Source: a virus | Virus record (IMG/VR): IMGVR_UViG_3300046375_000045 | Span: 1-39,288 of that record | Reading direction: 5' to 3' (one strand) | DNA: 39,288 nt | Shown here: positions 4,080-20,286 of the stretch, piece after piece | Numbering within the stretch: position 1 is the stretch's first letter | How the letters are laid out: the number at the start of each line of letters is the position of its first letter | Program-made: the position numbers and the translations under genes | Notes under the pieces: model-generated | What the model was told of the DNA's origin: nothing | What the model saw: the letters and a program-made list of their open reading frames with translations, nothing else | Database searches by the model: none

Positions 4080-5236
4080 TATATCGAGACGTTAACGGGG
4101 AATTGGTTGGATGGAGCGACGAACGCCTTGGCCTGCCGAGCGCCTCAGCCTGGCACCGCTACGAACTCTGTGCTGGTTCCTGGCAGCTTGAGACCGAGGC
4201 GCGGGCACTCGGCCAAAGTGCACATGAGACTTCGCCTGCAGCCGAACGCGGTGCGCTGATCCACGCCTGGCTGGCGGGCGAAATCGACGAAGACGGCACC
4301 GAGATCAAGCTCGATGAGTCCGAGCAGCAGACTGCCGATTTTTTGCAGGAGCGCGCTACCGAGCAGGTTCACCGGATCTTTGGGGATGAGCCGACTTTAG
4401 AACTGGCCGAGAAACGGTTGTGGCTTACCGTCAACGGGCGCAAGGCGGCGAGCGGGCGTTTCGATCGCGTGATCTACACGCCAAGCGTCGCGCTGGTGCA
4501 GGATTTTAAGACCGGGTGGCTTGAACCGGATCCGGCCGAACAGAACAGCCAAATGAAGGTCCTGGCAGTGTTGGTGGCGTTGCACATGCCCAGTATGTTG
4601 CGCGAGGTCATTGTCCAGATCATTTCAGGGCCCTTCGGCGTGACGGAGGCTAGATATGACTTGCCGGCGCTGGCCAAGGCCTATAACGAGATCCTGGCAA
4701 CATTGCGGACGATCCAGGACCCGCTGGCGCCGCTCAATCCGTCACCGGAGGCCTGCCGGTTTTGTCCAGCAATTCTAGTTTGTCAGGCGGTCAAGAACTT
4801 GGTCCTGCCTGTCGCTAAGACCCAGGTTTCGGCACTTCCCGATGGTGTTCGCGGTGCCAAGCTGCTCGATGAGGTCGCCATCCTCGAAAAGCATTTTAAA
4901 GAGATTAAAAAATATTACGAGCGCCGGTGCAATGAGCTGACCTATAAGTTGCCGGGCTATGGCCTGGTGCCGGGGAACGAAGTCCGCGAGGTAGTGGACT
5001 GGGAGAAAGCCGAGATGCGTTTGGCTGAGTATCTGGAGGCCGACCAACTTAAAGAGGCGCACTCTTATACGATCGGCAAGCTGGAGGCCGCGCTGGCCAA
5101 AAGCTTAAAGCTCACCGCCGACCAAGCCAAAGAGAAGCTTAACCAAATTCTCGATGGCCTGATCGTCAAGAACCAGAACAAATCCAGCCTAAAGCGGGTT
5201 AGCAAGAAGGGCTTGGTCGTCGTCGAGCTGCCGTAG
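4076..5236 (+). CDS. Fe-S PD-(D/E)XK exonuclease (DUF2800 / Cas4-like)
   Basis: 386 residues. The RecB-type nuclease motifs are visible: H63 (GALIHAWL), D130 (SGRFDR), D143 and K145 (VQDFKTG). Cysteines C32, C227, C230 and C236 (ELCAG ... CRFCPAILVC) have the one-plus-three spacing of a 4Fe-4S cluster, as in Cas4 and AddB. The expected role is 5' end resection to give single strands for the Sak4/SSB pair just upstream. The C-terminal 110 residues are helical and charged. Confidence 0.85.
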   Translation: MIYRDVNGELVGWSDERLGLPSASAWHRYELCAGSWQLETEARALGQSAHETSPAAERGALIHAWLAGEIDEDGTEIKLDESEQQTADFLQERATEQVHRIFGDEPTLELAEKRLWLTVNGRKAASGRFDRVIYTPSVALVQDFKTGWLEPDPAEQNSQMKVLAVLVALHMPSMLREVIVQIISGPFGVTEARYDLPALAKAYNEILATLRTIQDPLAPLNPSPEACRFCPAILVCQAVKNLVLPVAKTQVSALPDGVRGAKLLDEVAILEKHFKEIKKYYERRCNELTYKLPGYGLVPGNEVREVVDWEKAEMRLAEYLEADQLKEAHSYTIGKLEAALAKSLKLTADQAKEKLNQILDGLIVKNQNKSSLKRVSKKGLVVVELP

Positions 5237-5244
5237 AGGAATTT

Positions 5245-5619
5245 ATGACGCCCAAAGGATTTGAACGGCATAGAGGCCAGCTTTTAACCGAAAAGAACGA
5301 GATCGATCTGGAGCTTGCCGCCATCAAAAATGAGCTAAAAGTCGCAAGGCGAGAATTTGCTGCAACTGGTCGAGCCGCAAACAGAGAGTGGTTGAGCGAA
5401 CGGGAAAATCGTTTGCTAGAGTTGCAGCGCACTTCACAAGAGTTGCAGCGTCAGATAGGTGGACTGAATGCCATCAAAAAAGCTGAAATAGGTTTAGATC
5501 ATTTTGTTCACGAGGTCTTGCTCGAAAAAATGTCGCGCGAAGAAGTAGTGGAGATTTTTCGCGAAGCCATTCTTCGGCGGCGATTGTATCTCGATAGCAA
5601 TAATAAGGAATTGCCGTGA
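5245..5619 (+). CDS. Coiled-coil hypothetical protein
   Basis: 124 residues; GAGGA (5235-5239) precedes the ATG by 5 bases. Residues 10-75 have a heptad-like pattern of Leu, Ile, Glu and Lys without Gly or Pro interruptions, so a long coiled coil is likely. The C-terminal 40 residues (HFVHEVLLEKMSREEVVEIF) form a separate amphipathic region. No family recognised. It is in the early operon between the exonuclease and the ParB-domain gene. Confidence 0.7.
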   Translation: MTPKGFERHRGQLLTEKNEIDLELAAIKNELKVARREFAATGRAANREWLSERENRLLELQRTSQELQRQIGGLNAIKKAEIGLDHFVHEVLLEKMSREEVVEIFREAILRRRLYLDSNNKELP

Positions 5620-5624
5620 GGCAT

Positions 5625-5637
5625 AGCACTGAGTGCT
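5625..5637. promoter_or_regulatory. Palindromic operator candidate upstream of the ParB-domain gene
   Basis: AGCACT-G-AGTGCT is a perfect 13-bp palindrome five bases before the ATG at 5643. The 10-mer TGAGTGCTAA it contains (5630-5639) recurs at 11796-11805 and, reversed, at 20847-20856, each time between genes. Autoregulation by the ParB-domain protein or control by a phage repressor are both possible. Confidence 0.5.
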
Positions 5638-5642
5638 AATTT

Positions 5643-6509
5643 ATGAACATACCAAAACCATCCGGTAAGGTTCATCCGGTGGCGGACATGTTTCCGCTGA
5701 TGCCAGAGGACGAACTTGATGAACTTGCCGCAGATATCAAAACAAATGGGCTCAACAATCCGATCGTCTTAGATAAGGATGGAACGTTAATCGACGGGCG
5801 CAACCGACTCGCTGCGTGCAAACGCGCAAAGATCACTCCTACCTATATACTTTTGGATGGCCAAGATTCGATCGCCTTCATCCTTTCTCAGAACATTAAT
5901 CGGCGGCATTTGAATCAAGGGCAGCGGGCAATCATTATCGCGGAGGCATTATCAGAGTCTGATAAAACGCAGCAAGTGGCATCTAAACAATCAGGAGTAA
6001 AACAGTCGCAGATAAGCGAAGCCAAAAGCATTCTTAAGTATGCACCAGACTTAGCAGATGCAATCGTTTTTGGTAGCGGCAAATTTGATCCAGCATATCA
6101 GATTGCGAAGCAGCGCAAAGAGATAGCGGCACGTAACGAAGCAAATGCGGCACGCCTCCAAGCTGAAGACACTGAGCTGTGGGCCAAGGTTCAAGACGAC
6201 AACGACCCAATGACTCTGGATACGGCGATCATTGAATTGGCGCGCCGACAACGTGCCGCGGAAGAAAAAAAGGCTGAAGAGGCCGCGGTGCGCATGCAAC
6301 AGCGGATGCTTAGTACTCAGCACTTGGAAACCGCGATCAACTATTGCGAACCACATGGTTATACGCCACAGGAATGGGCGCAAAGGTTTGTAGAACTTTT
6401 TGATCCATCCAGTTCGCGTGAAAAAATTACTCGGGAACGCATTGAGCAAAGCGCGGAAGTATTAAAGCATTTATCAAAAATCTGGCCCACTCTATATGGA
6501 CAAGAATAA
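5643..6509 (+). CDS. ParB-domain DNA-binding protein
   Basis: 288 residues. The N-terminal ParB/sulfiredoxin-fold domain (about 10-95) has VHPVADMFPLMPEDELDELA, the box DGTLIDGRNRLAACKRAK equivalent to the ParB CTP-binding GERRxRA region, and SQNINRRHLN. A KorB-type HTH follows (about 105-140, QQVASKQSGVKQSQISEAKS), then a charged coiled coil. Phage proteins of this type regulate or modify rather than partition in many cases. Here a consensus parS-like site occurs at 12728-12743, so site-specific clamping is worth considering. A palindrome lies just before the start; no strong RBS is seen. Confidence 0.85.
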   Translation: MNIPKPSGKVHPVADMFPLMPEDELDELAADIKTNGLNNPIVLDKDGTLIDGRNRLAACKRAKITPTYILLDGQDSIAFILSQNINRRHLNQGQRAIIIAEALSESDKTQQVASKQSGVKQSQISEAKSILKYAPDLADAIVFGSGKFDPAYQIAKQRKEIAARNEANAARLQAEDTELWAKVQDDNDPMTLDTAIIELARRQRAAEEKKAEEAAVRMQQRMLSTQHLETAINYCEPHGYTPQEWAQRFVELFDPSSSREKITRERIEQSAEVLKHLSKIWPTLYGQE

Positions 6510-6972
6510 AACTAAAAAGCCGACTTTGATCGAAGTCGCGATGACAGAGCGTTTCGCCCTGGAGAAAAACGGTGTTTCTAAAAATTCGGAAGTTGTTAGT
6601 GCGGTCGAAAAGCGTATTTATGCCGATGTTACCCTTACGGGAATTGACTTTAGAAGTATGGCGCAAAGTGCCGTCACTTCTGAAGTTAATTCCCGCCGAC
6701 CAGATTGGATGTCTCCGGGATTTGATTGGTATCAGCGTGATTTATTAATCCCTATTGATGAGGAGATGAATGGGACTCAGGTACGGCTCGAATTAGCTAC
6801 TTCAGAACACTTGGACCATTATTACGAAATCTATATTAAGGAATTCGATAATCGTAAGGCAGCTGAAAAAGCGTTTAAGAGAGCATTCGGTTGGATTCAA
6901 ACTAATATTGTGGGGTCCAATAATCTGGGCGAAGCGATGACTAAAAAGTTTGGACCAGATTTCGGCAAATGA
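6496..6972 (+). CDS. Hypothetical protein, 158 residues
   Basis: Starts inside the 3' end of the ParB-domain gene (14-base overlap), indicating translational coupling. Soluble, acidic in the second half, with no recognised motif; the C-terminal part (YYEIYIKEFDNRKAAEKAFK) looks helical. The region 5240-7000 is visibly more AT-rich than its neighbours, suggesting the ParB gene and this one came in together. Confidence 0.7.
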   Translation: MDKNKTKKPTLIEVAMTERFALEKNGVSKNSEVVSAVEKRIYADVTLTGIDFRSMAQSAVTSEVNSRRPDWMSPGFDWYQRDLLIPIDEEMNGTQVRLELATSEHLDHYYEIYIKEFDNRKAAEKAFKRAFGWIQTNIVGSNNLGEAMTKKFGPDFGK

Positions 6973-14747: not shown

Positions 14748-15443
14748 ATGAACGAACCTGACCTTGACTTTATTCGTCGGATTCTTTCGGTAGCCGAGTG
14801 CGGTAAACCGGATTTTCCGTTTAGTGAGGTCTACATTTATGCCGATGATAACCGGTTCTCTCCTGCGCGGCGCCAGATCACACTTTCAATCGGATTCACC
14901 GAAGGCGGGGGGAACCTGAAAAAAGTGCTCGAGCGCTATATCGCGCAAGGCGGCGCATTGGCGAAGGATCTGCAGGCGTTTATGCCTGGCATGGGCGACA
15001 AATCACGCGGTTCCTTGGCCGGTAACCAGGCGTTTATCGCTCTGCTCAAGGTCGCCGGCAAAGAGCAAATCATGCAGCAGGTGCAACGTGAAGAGTTTGA
15101 CCGGATGTACTTACAGCCGGCAATCCGCTGGGGCGAGACCTACAAGTTCACCTTAAATCTATCGTTCCTGACAATCGCCGATTCCTATCTGCATTCGGGA
15201 TCGATGCTGCCGTTCTTGATGGCGAAGTTCCCGGAAAAAAAGCCGGTCGACGGCGGCAACGAAAAGAAATGGATCACCGATTACCTGGATGCGCGGAAGA
15301 GTTGGCTCGCTAATCACTCGAACAAGATTTTAAACGGCACGGTGTACCGGGCCAATTGTTACCTAATCGAAGCGAGCAAAGGCAACTGGGATTTGCAAAC
15401 CGCCGTGGTGATGCACGGAACAAGTGTGGGGCCCAGCGTATGA
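14748..15443 (+). CDS. Chitosanase/lysozyme-like endolysin candidate
   Basis: 231 residues. RRILSVAECGKPDFPFSEVY (11-29), the following D33/D34, QITLSIGFTEGGGNLKKVLE (43-62) and RYI match a phage family related to GH46 chitosanases, whose typical signature is a Glu near residue 17 and a downstream Asp before a 'GISYG..Q....GSL' strand. E17 and D33 or D34 are the probable catalytic pair. The second half is helical (residues 165-215). No signal peptide, so it would need a holin. It lies between two small membrane-protein genes. Confidence 0.65.
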   Translation: MNEPDLDFIRRILSVAECGKPDFPFSEVYIYADDNRFSPARRQITLSIGFTEGGGNLKKVLERYIAQGGALAKDLQAFMPGMGDKSRGSLAGNQAFIALLKVAGKEQIMQQVQREEFDRMYLQPAIRWGETYKFTLNLSFLTIADSYLHSGSMLPFLMAKFPEKKPVDGGNEKKWITDYLDARKSWLANHSNKILNGTVYRANCYLIEASKGNWDLQTAVVMHGTSVGPSV

Positions 15444-15628
15444 TGCTGGCGCTTATCCAATGGCTGGTCTTAGTGATCGTAGTCTGCCTGCTTTACTGGG
15501 TAGTCAGCCAGTTTGCGCCAGCACAGATTCTCAAAGTCGTGCTGGTGGTCTGTGTGGTCATTGTCGTCTTAAGTTTAATCTTTTTATTTCTGCCGCTCGC
15601 CGGCGTTCACTTAGGAGGGTTAAGATGA
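15440..15628 (+). CDS. Two-span small membrane protein, holin candidate
   Basis: 62 residues from ATG 15440 (ATGA-type overlap with the endolysin gene). Two hydrophobic spans, MLALIQWLVLVIVVCLLYWV and ILKVVLVVCVVIVVLSLIFL, are separated by a short QFAPAQ turn. This is the pattern of class II holins and of a common small phage membrane family of unknown role. Adjacency to the endolysin candidate argues for holin or antiholin. Confidence 0.65.
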   Translation: MMLALIQWLVLVIVVCLLYWVVSQFAPAQILKVVLVVCVVIVVLSLIFLFLPLAGVHLGGLR

Positions 15629-16008
15629 TGAAAATCATTTTCGCATTTCTGCTTTGGTCCATCGGTGCGGATGTGGCCTGGGCATCGCCGTTCCTGGTCT
15701 GTGATCCGTACCCGGCCGGCCTGGATCAGAACACGAGCCCGGTTTCGTTTATCTTGAAAGGACTTTCGGCTAACCCGATTTCGACTCCGGTTCAGACTAA
15801 TCAGGACGGTACAATCCAGCTTCATTATGATCTTTCAACGCTAGGTAACGGTACTTACACGGTTATCGCGGACGCCGTGAATGTGTTTGGAGGAGTGAGT
15901 CCCGATAGCGCCCCCTTTCGTGTTCACAAAAGGCGTACCGGCCTCGCCCAGCAACTTACGAATCGTACCGTGACCGTTGGCAGTTTCGTTTTTACCGAAT
16001 CAAACTAG
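15625..16008 (+). CDS. Secreted Ig-like domain protein
   Basis: 127 residues; AGGAGGG (15613-15619) precedes ATG 15625. MMKIIFAFLLWSIGADVAWA is a signal peptide with an AWA|S cut. The mature part (SPVSFILKGLSANPISTPVQ ... GTIQLHYDLSTLGNGTYTV) has the Pro/Gly strand pattern of an Ig/FN3-like sandwich. It ends one base before the portal ATG. Export is unusual in a late operon; it could aid lysis or decorate the cell surface. Confidence 0.7.
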   Translation: MMKIIFAFLLWSIGADVAWASPFLVCDPYPAGLDQNTSPVSFILKGLSANPISTPVQTNQDGTIQLHYDLSTLGNGTYTVIADAVNVFGGVSPDSAPFRVHKRRTGLAQQLTNRTVTVGSFVFTESN

Positions 16009-16009
16009 A

Positions 16010-17968
16010 ATGGCCGCTAACCCCGACGTCGTCGATACCACTAAGCCCGAAGCGATCGTTCCGGATACGGCGACTACGGCCGTGACCGAGCCGTTGATCC
16101 AGGTCGAGGTCCAGGATCGCCTCCTGCGCGAGCTTAAACGACGCTTGTTTCCAAACGATGTCGAAGGAATCCTGTATTCGGCCATCGTCGGCGATCTTTA
16201 TTGGCAAGACCAGCTCTGGAGCCTCATGGTCGATACCTGGCCACGGCTCCAAACTAACTTGGGCAAACTGAAGCAATCGGTATCGAGTATGGAGTTTGCC
16301 GTTACGCCGTATGCTGAAGCTGACGACGAGCCGACCCCGAGCGCGCTCGAGAAAGCCGATTTCGTTAAGACGGCGCTCTTTGGCATGCACGGCGACGTCG
16401 CGTTCCAGCAGCACGATTTTAAGGAGACTCTGGAAGATATCGTCGACTCGATCGTGGCCGGGTTTACCGTGATGGAGGTTTACTGGGAACAGCGCGACGG
16501 CGGGATCATGCCGCAATGTACCCGCTGGTTGCCGGCGAGGTATTATCGGTATCCGTACGTTCTCGATGATGTCGACCGGTTGATGCTGAACCCGAGCGGG
16601 ATGCTTGGTGGCACGCAACTGGTGGATTTTCCGCTGTACAAGTTCCTGGTCTGCATCAAGCAAAGTCACGCTAATCATCCGGTGTTTACGGCACCGATGC
16701 GGACCCTGAGCGCCTGGTGGATCGCGAGCCGGTTCGGGCTGGAGTGGTTCATGACGTACGCGCAGCTCTTCGGGATCCCGAACCGGATAGCGTACTACCA
16801 GCCGGGTGACGACGTCGTGTACCAGAAACTGGTCCAGATGATGCGCCAGAGTGCCGCGGCGACCTGGGGCGTTTATCCCAAAGGTACCGAGATCCATATC
16901 GATGCCGCAGCCGGGAGCTCGAGTGGACACCTGCCGCAAGAACGCTTGATCGATGAGGCCGATAAGGTCTGTGACATCATGCTGCTAGGCCAGACGCTGA
17001 CGACCGAGGTACGGGAGAGCGGCGGCAACCGCGCGTTGGGCACGGTTCACCGCAAGGTCATGGACGAGGTGATGGAAGCGGCCGCCAAGTACGCCGCTAA
17101 GGTGATCACTACCCAGATCATTCCGGGGATCATCATTTACAATTTTGGCGAAGCCACTGAGTTCCCGACTTTAGCGCCGGTCGTCAATTCGCCGATCGAT
17201 CTGTTTAACCTGGCGCAGGCTTACAACATCTTGTTTAACCAGATGAAGATCCCGGTCCTGAACAAAGAACTTTATGCCCGGATCGAGTTTACACCACCGG
17301 AGGACGACGATGATGTTTACGAGCCACCCGCGGCACCGCCACCACCTGCTAACCCGTTTGGATTCCCGCATCCACAACCAGAAGGTACCCGACCAGAGCC
17401 GGCTGGAGCGCCTAACGGCAGCAAGGAACCAGGGGCTAAACCTAATATCGTTGAGCGTGTGGGTGCTGCTGGGCTTGGGGACGCTGACTGTTGTGATCCA
17501 GATTTTGATGGTGCTGGCGAAGGTCCGGATGGAAACGCTGTTCCGGCTCGCAAGGTAAGTTTTGCGCTGGATTACGGCGAGGAACCGGAACCGGGCGAGG
17601 TGATGCGATTTCTAGAGAAGGTCGAGGCGCGACGTGAACCCGGAACAACGACGGTGCTTGAGCCAAGAAAGCTGGATCGTTCGCCGGCTGAGGCGGCTGT
17701 GTCGCATGACACCGCCCAGTATTTCCGGGAGAACGCCGCGACGATCAAGGGCGTCAAATGGAAATCGGTAATGGACGATCGGACCACGCCTGAGTGCGTG
17801 GCCTTGAATGGCAAGCGCTGGACTTACCCTGACCTAAAGCCGATCGGGCACGACCTCGAATTTCCTGATTTCCCGCCGATAAAATGGAACTGCCGCTCGA
17901 GCGTGATGCCGGTCTTGAAAACGTGGCCACAGATCCGGCAATGGCTCAAAGGAATTTTTAAGCGATGA
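16010..17968 (+). CDS. Portal (DUF935, Mu gp29-like) fused to a MuF-type C-terminal domain
   Basis: 652 residues from ATG 16010, right after the previous stop (an upstream TTG overlaps that gene). Residues about 25-430 match Mu gp29-type portals (YWQDQLWSLMVDTWPRLQTN; LEDIVDSIVAGFTVMEVYWE; MLLGQTLTTEVRESGGNRAL). A Pro/Gly/Asp-rich linker (about 430-530) follows. The last 90 residues (GVKWKSVMDDRTTPECVALN ... FPPIKWNCRSSV) carry the conserved 'W.S..D..T...C..LNG..W......P...WNCR' end of MuF/SPP1 gp7 proteins. The long helical part of MuF is missing, so portal and minor head functions are merged and shortened. Confidence 0.85.
   Translation: MAANPDVVDTTKPEAIVPDTATTAVTEPLIQVEVQDRLLRELKRRLFPNDVEGILYSAIVGDLYWQDQLWSLMVDTWPRLQTNLGKLKQSVSSMEFAVTPYAEADDEPTPSALEKADFVKTALFGMHGDVAFQQHDFKETLEDIVDSIVAGFTVMEVYWEQRDGGIMPQCTRWLPARYYRYPYVLDDVDRLMLNPSGMLGGTQLVDFPLYKFLVCIKQSHANHPVFTAPMRTLSAWWIASRFGLEWFMTYAQLFGIPNRIAYYQPGDDVVYQKLVQMMRQSAAATWGVYPKGTEIHIDAAAGSSSGHLPQERLIDEADKVCDIMLLGQTLTTEVRESGGNRALGTVHRKVMDEVMEAAAKYAAKVITTQIIPGIIIYNFGEATEFPTLAPVVNSPIDLFNLAQAYNILFNQMKIPVLNKELYARIEFTPPEDDDDVYEPPAAPPPPANPFGFPHPQPEGTRPEPAGAPNGSKEPGAKPNIVERVGAAGLGDADCCDPDFDGAGEGPDGNAVPARKVSFALDYGEEPEPGEVMRFLEKVEARREPGTTTVLEPRKLDRSPAEAAVSHDTAQYFRENAATIKGVKWKSVMDDRTTPECVALNGKRWTYPDLKPIGHDLEFPDFPPIKWNCRSSVMPVLKTWPQIRQWLKGIFKR
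17310..17558 (+). CDS. Nested ORF in another frame of the portal linker: membrane protein candidate
   Basis: Inside the portal gene, GGAGG (17299-17303) is followed after 6 bases by an ATG in another frame, giving 82 residues. The N-terminal half is His/Arg-rich; residues about 44-70 (LNLISLSVWVLLGLGTLTVV, IQILMVLA) form a strong membrane span, then a basic end. The overlapped portal segment is a low-complexity linker free to accommodate a second frame. RBS and span together suggest a real overprinted gene, but chance remains possible. Confidence 0.4.
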   Translation: MMFTSHPRHRHHLLTRLDSRIHNQKVPDQSRLERLTAARNQGLNLISLSVWVLLGLGTLTVVIQILMVLAKVRMETLFRLAR

Positions 17969-18174
17969 CCAGCGAGGAATTAACTAAGCGATTTACTTAT
18001 CACCCGGTGAAAGGCGATCAAGAACAACGCTATGTGCACATTCGAACAGAGGCCGGACGTCTGGCGCAGGTCATAACAGATATGACGCCGGAAAGTCGCG
18101 AACAGGCGATCGCATTTACTAAGCTTGAAGAAGTCGTGATGTGGGCCAATGCGGCAATTGCGAGGAACGAATGA
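17965..18174 (+). CDS. Acb2/Tad1-like hairpin protein, candidate anti-CBASS/anti-Thoeris sponge
   Basis: 69 residues, overlapping the portal stop by 4 bases. RFTYHPVKGDQEQRYVHIRT (9-28) followed by helix, the turn TPESREQAIAFTKLEE and VVMWANAAIARNE matches a widespread phage family that, from memory, is annotated as the Acb2/Tad1 hairpin domain. Acb2 and Tad1 bind cyclic nucleotides or gcADPR and so blind CBASS or Thoeris defence. The conserved Tyr, Lys, Arg and the SREQ turn are present. Placement at the head of a run of tiny genes inserted in the head module fits an anti-defence locus. Confidence 0.65.
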   Translation: MTSEELTKRFTYHPVKGDQEQRYVHIRTEAGRLAQVITDMTPESREQAIAFTKLEEVVMWANAAIARNE

Positions 18175-18356
18175 GCGATTCGGAAATTATCTATGATCCG
18201 ATCCGTTGCGAAACGCACATTGGAGATTTTGTGATCTCCGATCAGATGCTAGCAGAGATGGGTCTCAGCGTTGAAAACCTTTTAGAACGAGTTGATTTCA
18301 CCAAACGGTCTAAAAGGGTGCGAGTCGATTTAAAAATTCCAGAATCCTCCAAATGA
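18171..18356 (+). CDS. Hypothetical protein, 61 residues
   Basis: ATGA overlap with the Acb2-like gene. MSDSEIIYDPIRCETHIGDF begins a soluble, beta-leaning protein with a basic end (KRSKRVRVDLKIP). No family recognised. It belongs to the run of tiny overlapping accessory genes 17965-18994. Confidence 0.6.
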   Translation: MSDSEIIYDPIRCETHIGDFVISDQMLAEMGLSVENLLERVDFTKRSKRVRVDLKIPESSK

Positions 18357-18496
18357 ATAATCTTACCAAAGAGCAATTCGACGAATTAGTTGAGAAGCTT
18401 TTCTTCGATTATCCGGTAATCCAGGATCGATTTATCGATTTAACTACAGGGAAGGTGGTTACGAGCGAGGACATTTACGGCAAACTGACATGCTGA
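18353..18496 (+). CDS. Hypothetical protein, 47 residues
   Basis: ATGA overlap with the previous gene and 7-base overlap with the next. MNNLTKEQFDELVEKLFFDY with an acidic helix, ending SEDIYGKLTC. Too short for a family call; overlaps at both ends support expression. Confidence 0.55.
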   Translation: MNNLTKEQFDELVEKLFFDYPVIQDRFIDLTTGKVVTSEDIYGKLTC

Positions 18497-18777
18497 CGCG
18501 CGCCGAAAAGCTTTTCAATATCCGGGCCCAGGTCCAGAAAGCCGTGAGCGAGATCGAGCACGGGGCGGTGTTTACTTCTACTCTGGCGTTAGCCGATGCG
18601 TTAGAGGCCGTGCTGAGATTCTTGGAAGAAGAGATGCCCGAGAAACCGCCAATTGTATCGCCTGTGCCGCCGCCTGATCCGGATGCGGTCGATGAGATGC
18701 TGCAGCGGGAACGCCGGATTCATCCTATGGGTGAAAAGGTGAAAGAAGCCGAACCGGCAAAAATCAAACGGAGATAG
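18490..18777 (+). CDS. Hypothetical protein, 95 residues
   Basis: Helical N-terminal half (AEKLFNIRAQVQKAVSEIEH; LADALEAVLRFLEEEM), a Pro-rich hinge (KPPIVSPVPPPDPDAVDEML) and a basic C-terminal tail. It is codon-biased like the surrounding structural genes, unlike its AT-richer neighbours. Function unknown. Confidence 0.65.
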   Translation: MLTRAEKLFNIRAQVQKAVSEIEHGAVFTSTLALADALEAVLRFLEEEMPEKPPIVSPVPPPDPDAVDEMLQRERRIHPMGEKVKEAEPAKIKRR

Positions 18778-18782
18778 TCAGA

Positions 18783-18896
18783 ATGCAATTGTTTAAATTT
18801 CTTCGAGTTGTTCACCATAAGCCGAAGCGTGCAACTCCGCGCGCCATAACTCTTCTCCGAGCAACCAGCTTAGTATTGGAGCTGTTTTCACAATGA
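18783..18896 (+). CDS. 37-residue basic peptide (candidate)
   Basis: GGAG (18770-18773) lies 9 bases before the ATG. MQLFKFLRVVHHKPKRATPR leads to a short hydrophobic end. The stop overlaps the next start (ATGA). The RBS and the overlap argue for translation; no family known. Confidence 0.4.
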   Translation: MQLFKFLRVVHHKPKRATPRAITLLRATSLVLELFSQ

Positions 18897-18994
18897 TGCC
18901 GTCTTTGACGATAAACCCAGCGCAGAAGGTTCTCCCGGTGAGCCTAAACAATCTTTCCACTTCACACTACTACGTCATATTTGAGCAAAAATGA
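18893..18994 (+). CDS. 33-residue peptide coupling to the protease gene (candidate)
   Basis: Its start overlaps the previous stop and its stop overlaps the protease start, both by 4 bases, exactly filling an otherwise empty gap. MMPSLTINPAQKVLPVSLNN is neutral and lacks motifs. It may serve mainly to carry ribosomes to the protease start, which has no good RBS. Confidence 0.4.
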   Translation: MMPSLTINPAQKVLPVSLNNLSTSHYYVIFEQK

Positions 18995-20286
18995 AAATTA
19001 TTCAGGCGATCGAGAAACGCGAGGACGTGAGCCCGAGTGAAGGCAAATCGAAGTATGGCGACGTGAAGTACGCCGACGAAAAGAACAAGAAATACCCGAT
19101 CGATTCGGAGGCTCACGTACGAGCGGCTTGGAGCTACATCAATATGCCGAAGAACGCCGCGAAGTATTCGAGCGAAGACGTCAAGACGATCAAAGGCCGA
19201 ATCAAGGCAGCCGGCAAAAAGTACGGGATCGAATTCTCGGACAACGGCGACAAGACCGAGAGTTCGCTGGTGAGCGCCGCGTCGATCGATCTGGAAGGCG
19301 AGACACCGGCTGAGATCATCTATTTTCCGAAAGGCGATTGGCGGATCCGGCCGGTAGTAAACGGCAAAGCCAAAGAGGTATCGGTCAAGGTCGACGAGAG
19401 CGTAGCGAGCGTGCTGCAAGCCGACCTAAATCGTCGGCTTAAAGATACCGTGCGCCCATACGCGGCCTTCGATCACAAGCCCGGTGCAGCCAGCTTTTTG
19501 CCGAAACAATTTAAGTGGGATGATTCCAAAGGTGTCGTGCTCGAGGTTGACTGGACCCAAGCTGGTAAGGACGCCGTGGCGGGCCGAAACTATTCGTATT
19601 TTTCCCCTACGTTCCTACTCAGTGATAAGGGTAAAGTGGCCGGGCTACCGGATACCGGCGAGATCGGCAGCCTGACGAACAACCCAGCTTTTCGAGAAAT
19701 ACAAAAAATCGCAGCGTCGGCGGATGATGACGACGAAGGAGAAGAAAGCAAAATGGTAAAATTGACAGATAAGTTAGTTGAGCTTGAGGTGATCACCGCC
19801 GAACAAGCGGCGGACGCGGATGAGGAGTTTCTCGTGCGCGCGGTCACCGGGCTGCATGAGGCGCTGGCGACCGTACAAGCGGCCAACGCGCGCCTGGTAA
19901 GCGAGAACACGGCGCTAGCGGCCAAGGCGATCGAGGTACAGAAGGCTGAGGCGAGCTCGATTGTGCAGGCGGCAATCGCCGAGGGCAAGATCGGGGCTAA
20001 AGACAAGACATCGATCGAGTTCTGGACCGGACAACTGGTGAGCTCACCGGAAACAGCTAAGAAGGTAATTGCATCGTTGCCGACCAATCCGGTTTTGCAA
20101 AAAGTGATCGACGTCAAGGTGAGCGATACCAAGCGGGTTGCTCAAGGCCAGAGCACTGCAGACCTGGTGCAGGCCCAGCACTTGGCGGTAGCCGAGATCC
20201 AGGCGGCTAACCCGAACCTGTCGTACACGGACGCGTTTAATAAAGCGCGTCGGGACAAACCGGAGATCTTCCCGGTCGAAGCTTGA
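18991..20286 (+). CDS. Head maturation protease/scaffold (Mu gpI-like)
   Basis: 431 residues. An N-terminal extension (1-85, KYGDVKYADEKNKKYPID...HVRAAWSYI) resembles a small helical domain found beside phage proteases. The protease domain (about 98-245) has AAFDHKPG (D161, H162), WTQAGKDAV and YSYFSPTF (S195), the gpI pattern, followed by TGEIGSLTNNPAF. From about 255 on, Ala/Glu-rich coiled coil (LHEALATVQAANARLVSENT) is the scaffold. It should trim the scaffold and capsid during prohead maturation, as in Mu. Confidence 0.8.
   Translation: MKIIQAIEKREDVSPSEGKSKYGDVKYADEKNKKYPIDSEAHVRAAWSYINMPKNAAKYSSEDVKTIKGRIKAAGKKYGIEFSDNGDKTESSLVSAASIDLEGETPAEIIYFPKGDWRIRPVVNGKAKEVSVKVDESVASVLQADLNRRLKDTVRPYAAFDHKPGAASFLPKQFKWDDSKGVVLEVDWTQAGKDAVAGRNYSYFSPTFLLSDKGKVAGLPDTGEIGSLTNNPAFREIQKIAASADDDDEGEESKMVKLTDKLVELEVITAEQAADADEEFLVRAVTGLHEALATVQAANARLVSENTALAAKAIEVQKAEASSIVQAAIAEGKIGAKDKTSIEFWTGQLVSSPETAKKVIASLPTNPVLQKVIDVKVSDTKRVAQGQSTADLVQAQHLAVAEIQAANPNLSYTDAFNKARRDKPEIFPVEA
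19753..20286 (+). CDS. Nested in-frame scaffold start (Mu gpZ-like arrangement)
   Basis: An ATG at 19753 sits exactly at the border between the protease and the coiled-coil scaffold, with AAGGAG (19736-19741) 11 bases upstream. Initiation here would yield a 177-residue scaffold without protease, as gpZ is produced inside gpI in Mu. The spacing is long, so the assignment rests mainly on position and precedent. Confidence 0.5.
   Translation: MVKLTDKLVELEVITAEQAADADEEFLVRAVTGLHEALATVQAANARLVSENTALAAKAIEVQKAEASSIVQAAIAEGKIGAKDKTSIEFWTGQLVSSPETAKKVIASLPTNPVLQKVIDVKVSDTKRVAQGQSTADLVQAQHLAVAEIQAANPNLSYTDAFNKARRDKPEIFPVEA

Follow-up and report, generated by a model that had tools for sequence, protein, structure and literature searches.

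The IMG/VR virus record analyzed here, whose entire 39,288 bases we refer to as the window, carries a 1022-bp slot between its portal and head maturation protease genes. The slot is occupied by the gene for a putative Acb2-type sponge protein (acb2), three further small genes (orfB, orfC, and orfD), and 213 bp of doubtful sequence. The features of this region, all on the plus strand, are as follows.

15977..17968, plus strand: portal protein with a C-terminal MuF domain, left border of the slot (PF06074, 1.2e-61; PF04233, 6.6e-07)
17965..18174, plus strand: putative Acb2-type sponge protein, 69 aa (PF24729, Pfam 4.3e-20; phrog_1454, 3.2e-23)
18171..18356, plus strand: orfB, 61 aa (same-slot homologues in relatives L030, L031, and L033; dN/dS 0.14-0.63)
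18353..18496, plus strand: orfC, 47 aa (93% identical same-slot homologue in L032 and L034; dN/dS 0.07)
18490..18777, plus strand: orfD, 95 aa (homologues in L030-L037; dN/dS 0.21-0.27)
18783..18896, plus strand: orfE, 37 aa, doubtful gene (weak codon-usage z of 1.8)
18893..18994, plus strand: orfF, 33 aa, doubtful gene (weak codon-usage z of 2.0)
18991..20286, plus strand: Mu-type head maturation protease I, right border of the slot (PF20223, 2e-32; PF10123, 1.8e-17; phrog_328, 6.3e-22)

These profile matches confirm the flanks named in the original prediction, a portal gene and a Mu-like protease I gene, the latter with a DUF6582 domain (PF20223) fused to its N-terminus. The accompanying statement that the two genes are adjacent in Mu-like heads applies to two distant relatives of this phage and not to phage Mu itself, in which the two are separated by F and G; in the window, MuF is fused to the portal. 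A short way upstream, and separated from the portal gene by an ORF at 15424-16008, is a glycosyl hydrolase family 46 (chitosanase) domain (14748-15443; 4.2e-14). Akkermansia phage Chantilly, a distant relative, has its endolysin gene directly before the portal gene, so the GH46 gene may encode an endolysin.

Five tiny genes, all in overlap, had been proposed to follow the 69-residue ORF. Homologues in relatives, with fewer amino-acid than silent changes, uphold orfB, orfC, and orfD. No Pfam or PHROGs family and no match among annotated phages was found for orfB, which the IMG/VR scan located in two contigs only. orfD, which has a conserved N-terminus (MTRAEKLFNIRAQVQKA) in the closest relatives, occurs in most of the relatives compared and usually adjoins the protease gene; as the gene most often kept, it is probably resident in the slot. 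orfE and orfF, in contrast, are probably not genes: neither has a homologue in any relative compared, and in the closest relatives the protease gene follows directly on the one preceding it, with no orfE or orfF between. Nor is the overlap continuous, as the start at 18783 lies 5 bp past the preceding stop. On the minus strand, a 55-aa ORF (18793-18960) overlies orfE and orfF and may be the real gene of the 213-bp insert; its first half weakly matches Gordonia phage Keelan (E=0.02, 47% over 32 aa), and it returned no IMG/VR match and no family. None of the small slot genes had a convincing match in Pfam, PHROGs, or PADLOC.

The 69-aa protein, whose start overlaps the portal stop codon as ATGA, clearly belongs to the Acb2/Tad1 hairpin family, as had been predicted. 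An HMM search with PF24729 gave 72.1 bits against a curated cut-off of 27 bits and covered the entire profile (1-58 of 58). The match was recovered by a six-frame scan of the genome and was seen in none of 14 control genomes, which together with the Pfam score rules out a chance match. The same model scored T4 Acb2 (Vs.4) at 71.4 bits and read-through PaMx41 gp24 at 59.5 bits, so that the 69-aa protein is as good a member of the family as these proven proteins. Its PHROGs placement, phrog_1454, is annotated without a function. The closest solved chain by sequence is PDB 9ptq, 'Acb2 homolog 43' (E=0.0085), for which a literature search found no publication. The protein is a further member of a known sponge family.

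Conservation extends to positions linked to nucleotide binding in T4 Acb2. In an alignment of 19 sequences, the protein and 18 homologues encoded on other viral contigs (44-65% identity), R27, P42, E46, A50, L54, E56, and the stretch VVMWANA (57-63) were invariant, and Y12, H13, R45, T52, and R67 were at least 90% conserved. R45 occupies what we take to be the alignment position of the PaMx33 Acb2 arginine that contacts cyclic trinucleotides. In the alignment to T4 Acb2, which shares the motif TKLxExxMWA, Y8, K23, and T68 correspond to Y12, R27 (a basic residue 15 places past Y12), and T52, respectively. The Y8A substitution in T4 Acb2 disrupts dinucleotide binding (PMC12657218), and T68M has been reported to lower binding (PMC12657230). 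A third T4 residue, F82, stacks on the ligand, and its change to Cys weakens binding (PMC12657218); this column holds A66 in the 69-aa protein and also Ala in PaMx41 gp24, indicating that Phe82 is characteristic of T4 Acb2 rather than diagnostic of the family. The C-terminal tail that extends past the hairpin in T4 and PaMx41 Acb2 is absent, and the affinity and spectrum of the predicted sponge may therefore differ from theirs.

AlphaFold2, run from the alignment, places helices at residues 3-9, 19-40, and 45-67 (mean pLDDT 86.6, lower at 63-71 over the first 20 residues). The predicted plan is that of Acb2, a short N-terminal helix and two long antiparallel helices with no other domain. Foldseek ranked T4 Vs.4 with cGAMP first with a probability of 0.96, yet a weak E of 0.56, and VIA-align against Acb2 chain 8h2j_B gave an rmsd of 2.4 over 62 of 69 residues and a Z of 6.3, no higher than for unrelated helical bundles; with a fold as simple as a helical hairpin, such comparisons may be read as agreement, not proof. 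Selection on the gene was assessed against relative L031 (portal 92% identical), whose copy is 5'-truncated and covers codons 26-69 only. The 17 synonymous and two non-synonymous differences over these 44 codons (dN/dS about 0.02) indicate strong purifying selection during most of the time since divergence.

In the relatives of this phage, the space between portal and protease is a cargo slot of variable content, empty in two of them and 372-1284 bp long in the others. Its contents, in order, are as follows.

L030: 372 bp; orfB, orfD
L031: 1284 bp; extended portal frame, 60-aa gene, acb2 fragment, fragments of orfD and the portal end, orfB, 46-aa gene, orfD
L032 and L034: 513 bp (measured in L032); 46-aa gene, orfC, orfD
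L033: 684 bp; 95-aa gene, orfB, orfD
L035: 516 bp; orfD-like gene, 92-aa gene
L036: 839 bp; orfD-like gene, 169-aa gene
L037: 528 bp; 76-aa Lar-family protein gene, orfD-like gene
L087 and L038: empty

Within the available sequence of the twelve records searched, several of which are fragments, PF24729 was found only in the window and in L031. That acb2 comes and goes between phages whose portals are about 90% or more identical is consistent with accessory cargo. The L031 slot (4580-5890) is a mosaic containing pieces of acb2, of orfD, and of the 3' end of the portal gene, with a 46-60 aa gene present twice, and these fragments suggest that slots change by illegitimate recombination. The L037 slot protein scores 37.5 bits with PF14354 (Lar restriction alleviation; cut-off 28.6), an independent if weak hint of anti-defence cargo; a second Lar-like match in the same record (about 6543-6710), downstream of the major capsid gene, scores 19 bits and so falls below the cut-off. 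Scans of additional slot genes from the relatives detected no family other than Lar. By eye, the 92-aa gene of L035 resembles the gene that follows an acb2-like gene in another record, L025, a likeness that suggests shared cargo.

Beyond this group, relatives of the 69-aa protein occur (E up to 1) in 410 phage records, most of them from actinophages and Paenibacillus phages. Neighbors of the Acb2-like gene include the portal gene in Gordonia phages Schomber and ScarletRaider, tail genes in cyanophage S-2L, a recombinase and HicAB region in Lily, the terminase region in Ibantik, DnaQ and endolysin genes in KimJongPhill, thymidylate synthase and DNA polymerase genes in Remus, and replication genes in Halcyone. 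Linkage of portal and acb2 as a general rule was accordingly rejected, and the place in the head operon is not a rule of the family. Several of these loci merit record in their own right. The S-2L match (L040 6001-6201; MW334946 35205-35405) is unannotated, 51% identical, and lies in a gap between tail genes; two acb2-like hairpin matches stand in tandem in L026 (6001-6204 and 6265-6471); and in Paenibacillus phages, e.g., L098 2495-2710, Acb2-like proteins are labeled 'putative phosphomannomutase,' apparently a misannotation. In two Gordonia phage records (L039 7201-8289 and L094 4692-5789), portal, Acb2-like, RNA ligase, and ADP-ribosyltransferase genes succeed one another. A hairpin scan of genomes found only four loci (in Anaeromyxobacter, a Clostridia MAG, a Christensenella bin, and a Phascolarctobacterium MAG), and a search for the host that ran the portal alignment against 84,980 genomes found no relative.

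Relative to Acb2 of T4 (Vs.4), PaMx33, and PaMx41, the protein retains the full PF24729 profile, the helix plan, and the Y8 and T68 positions, but is shorter (69 aa against 88-94), with a reduced inter-helix region, lacks the tail and the F82 equivalent of the T4 protein as described above, and is encoded in a head operon between portal and protease. Short hairpin forms are already known in actinobacteriophages: Xandras gp101, 37% identical in the tblastn match, is annotated as a CBASS antagonist, as are short forms in cluster E mycobacteriophages (PMC11953737), and Acb2 has also been annotated in Microbacterium phage Statler (PMC13348362). The cluster E phages belong to a different group, however, and there the gene overlaps a ClpP-like protease gene instead of the portal. 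Another close counterpart is Schomber gp23, which is 50% identical and scores 73 bits with PF24729, and whose start codon begins at the final base of the portal gene; it is nevertheless followed by RNA ligase and ADP-ribosyltransferase genes, not a protease, in an unrelated phage.

The 69-aa protein is most likely a cyclic-oligonucleotide sponge directed against CBASS-type signaling, and an anti-defence role for it is likely. We consider it probable that it is an Acb2-kind sponge, carried in a cargo slot and expressed in step with the head genes, that sequesters the cyclic oligonucleotides of CD-NTases. Translational coupling to the portal gene would have the sponge made late alongside head proteins; it would then assemble, probably as a hexamer, and capture cyclic oligonucleotides produced by the CD-NTase of the host, which would keep the effector of CBASS or a similar system switched off. 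The slot would thereby yield the sponge together with head proteins, which are known to trigger CBASS and Thoeris. Interaction of a prohead protease with a CBASS sensor has been shown (PMC12409349), and a TIR-based system is reported to sense capsids (PMC11312562); production of the sponge with the head genes would fit both reports.

Less probably, the short form is a sponge for other signals, mainly cyclic trinucleotides at the three-fold interface common to Acb2 and Tad1, or a still-unknown signal. The hairpin is the part these two families have in common; the trinucleotide site, in the trimer channel, is separate from the dinucleotide pocket (PMC12043709), and it is this pocket that would be without the tail found in T4 and PaMx41 Acb2. 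The near-invariance of Y12 and R27 among short forms, however, suggests that the dinucleotide pocket has been kept. That the protein inhibits Thoeris in the manner of Tad1, by sequestering gcADPR, seems hardly probable at all. The protein does have the helical hairpin that forms the C-terminal part of Tad1, and weakly matches Tad1 hairpins in the PDB by sequence, but it aligns only to the C-terminal helices of those 123-132 aa chains, is predicted to be all helical, and has no counterpart of the extra N-terminal beta domain that contributes to the gcADPR pocket of Tad1. The absence of this domain led us to reject Tad1-like, anti-Thoeris activity as the main reading; since the protein is more like Acb2 than Tad1, anti-Thoeris activity is less likely than anti-CBASS activity.

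The location in a head operon, and the equivalent portal-adjacent place in Schomber and ScarletRaider, could instead point to a small protein with a structural or assembly role in the head, one that has an ancestral hairpin in common with Acb2 and binds no nucleotide. This is quite unlikely given that phages with portals about 90% or more identical do without the gene, which is thus not needed for the head, that the family is found elsewhere among replication, nucleotide-metabolism, or tail genes, and that the ligand positions are conserved.

The neighbors of the acb2 gene had been put forward as candidates for further inhibitors. This proposal receives modest support from the variability of the slot and the Lar-family protein in one relative; against it, the neighbors have no convincing family match and two of the five are probably not genes. 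Members of the Acb2 family in other phages lie mostly in replication, packaging, or tail regions, and together with the lack of convincing family matches and the two doubtful genes, such contexts mean that the neighbors could be ordinary head or accessory genes. Opinion is evenly balanced on whether orfB-orfD are ordinary head or packaging accessories and the sponge alone serves counter-defence. The small genes all lack matches to defence or anti-defence families, and orfD homologues occupy the slots of eight relatives (L030-L037) as a resident gene would, both of which agree with the accessory reading; orfB and orfC, on the other hand, come and go as the sponge does, and the Lar-family slot protein again counts in the opposite direction. 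It is doubtful that the gap is a dedicated late counter-defence slot, in which sponges, Lar-like proteins, and small genes are swapped beside head proteins that trigger CBASS and Thoeris, with orfB and orfC as new inhibitors. As anti-immunity genes, orfB, orfC, and orfD are reasonable, though unproven, suspects.

These findings add an uncultivated phage group with Mu-like heads to the carriers of the short Acb2 form that lacks the tail, and show this form there as exchangeable cargo inside the head operon. Should the slot prove to hold counter-defence cargo, its small genes would form a compact list of candidates, and by encoding a sponge beside its protease and capsid genes a phage would have a simple means of making the antidote together with the trigger of the alarm.
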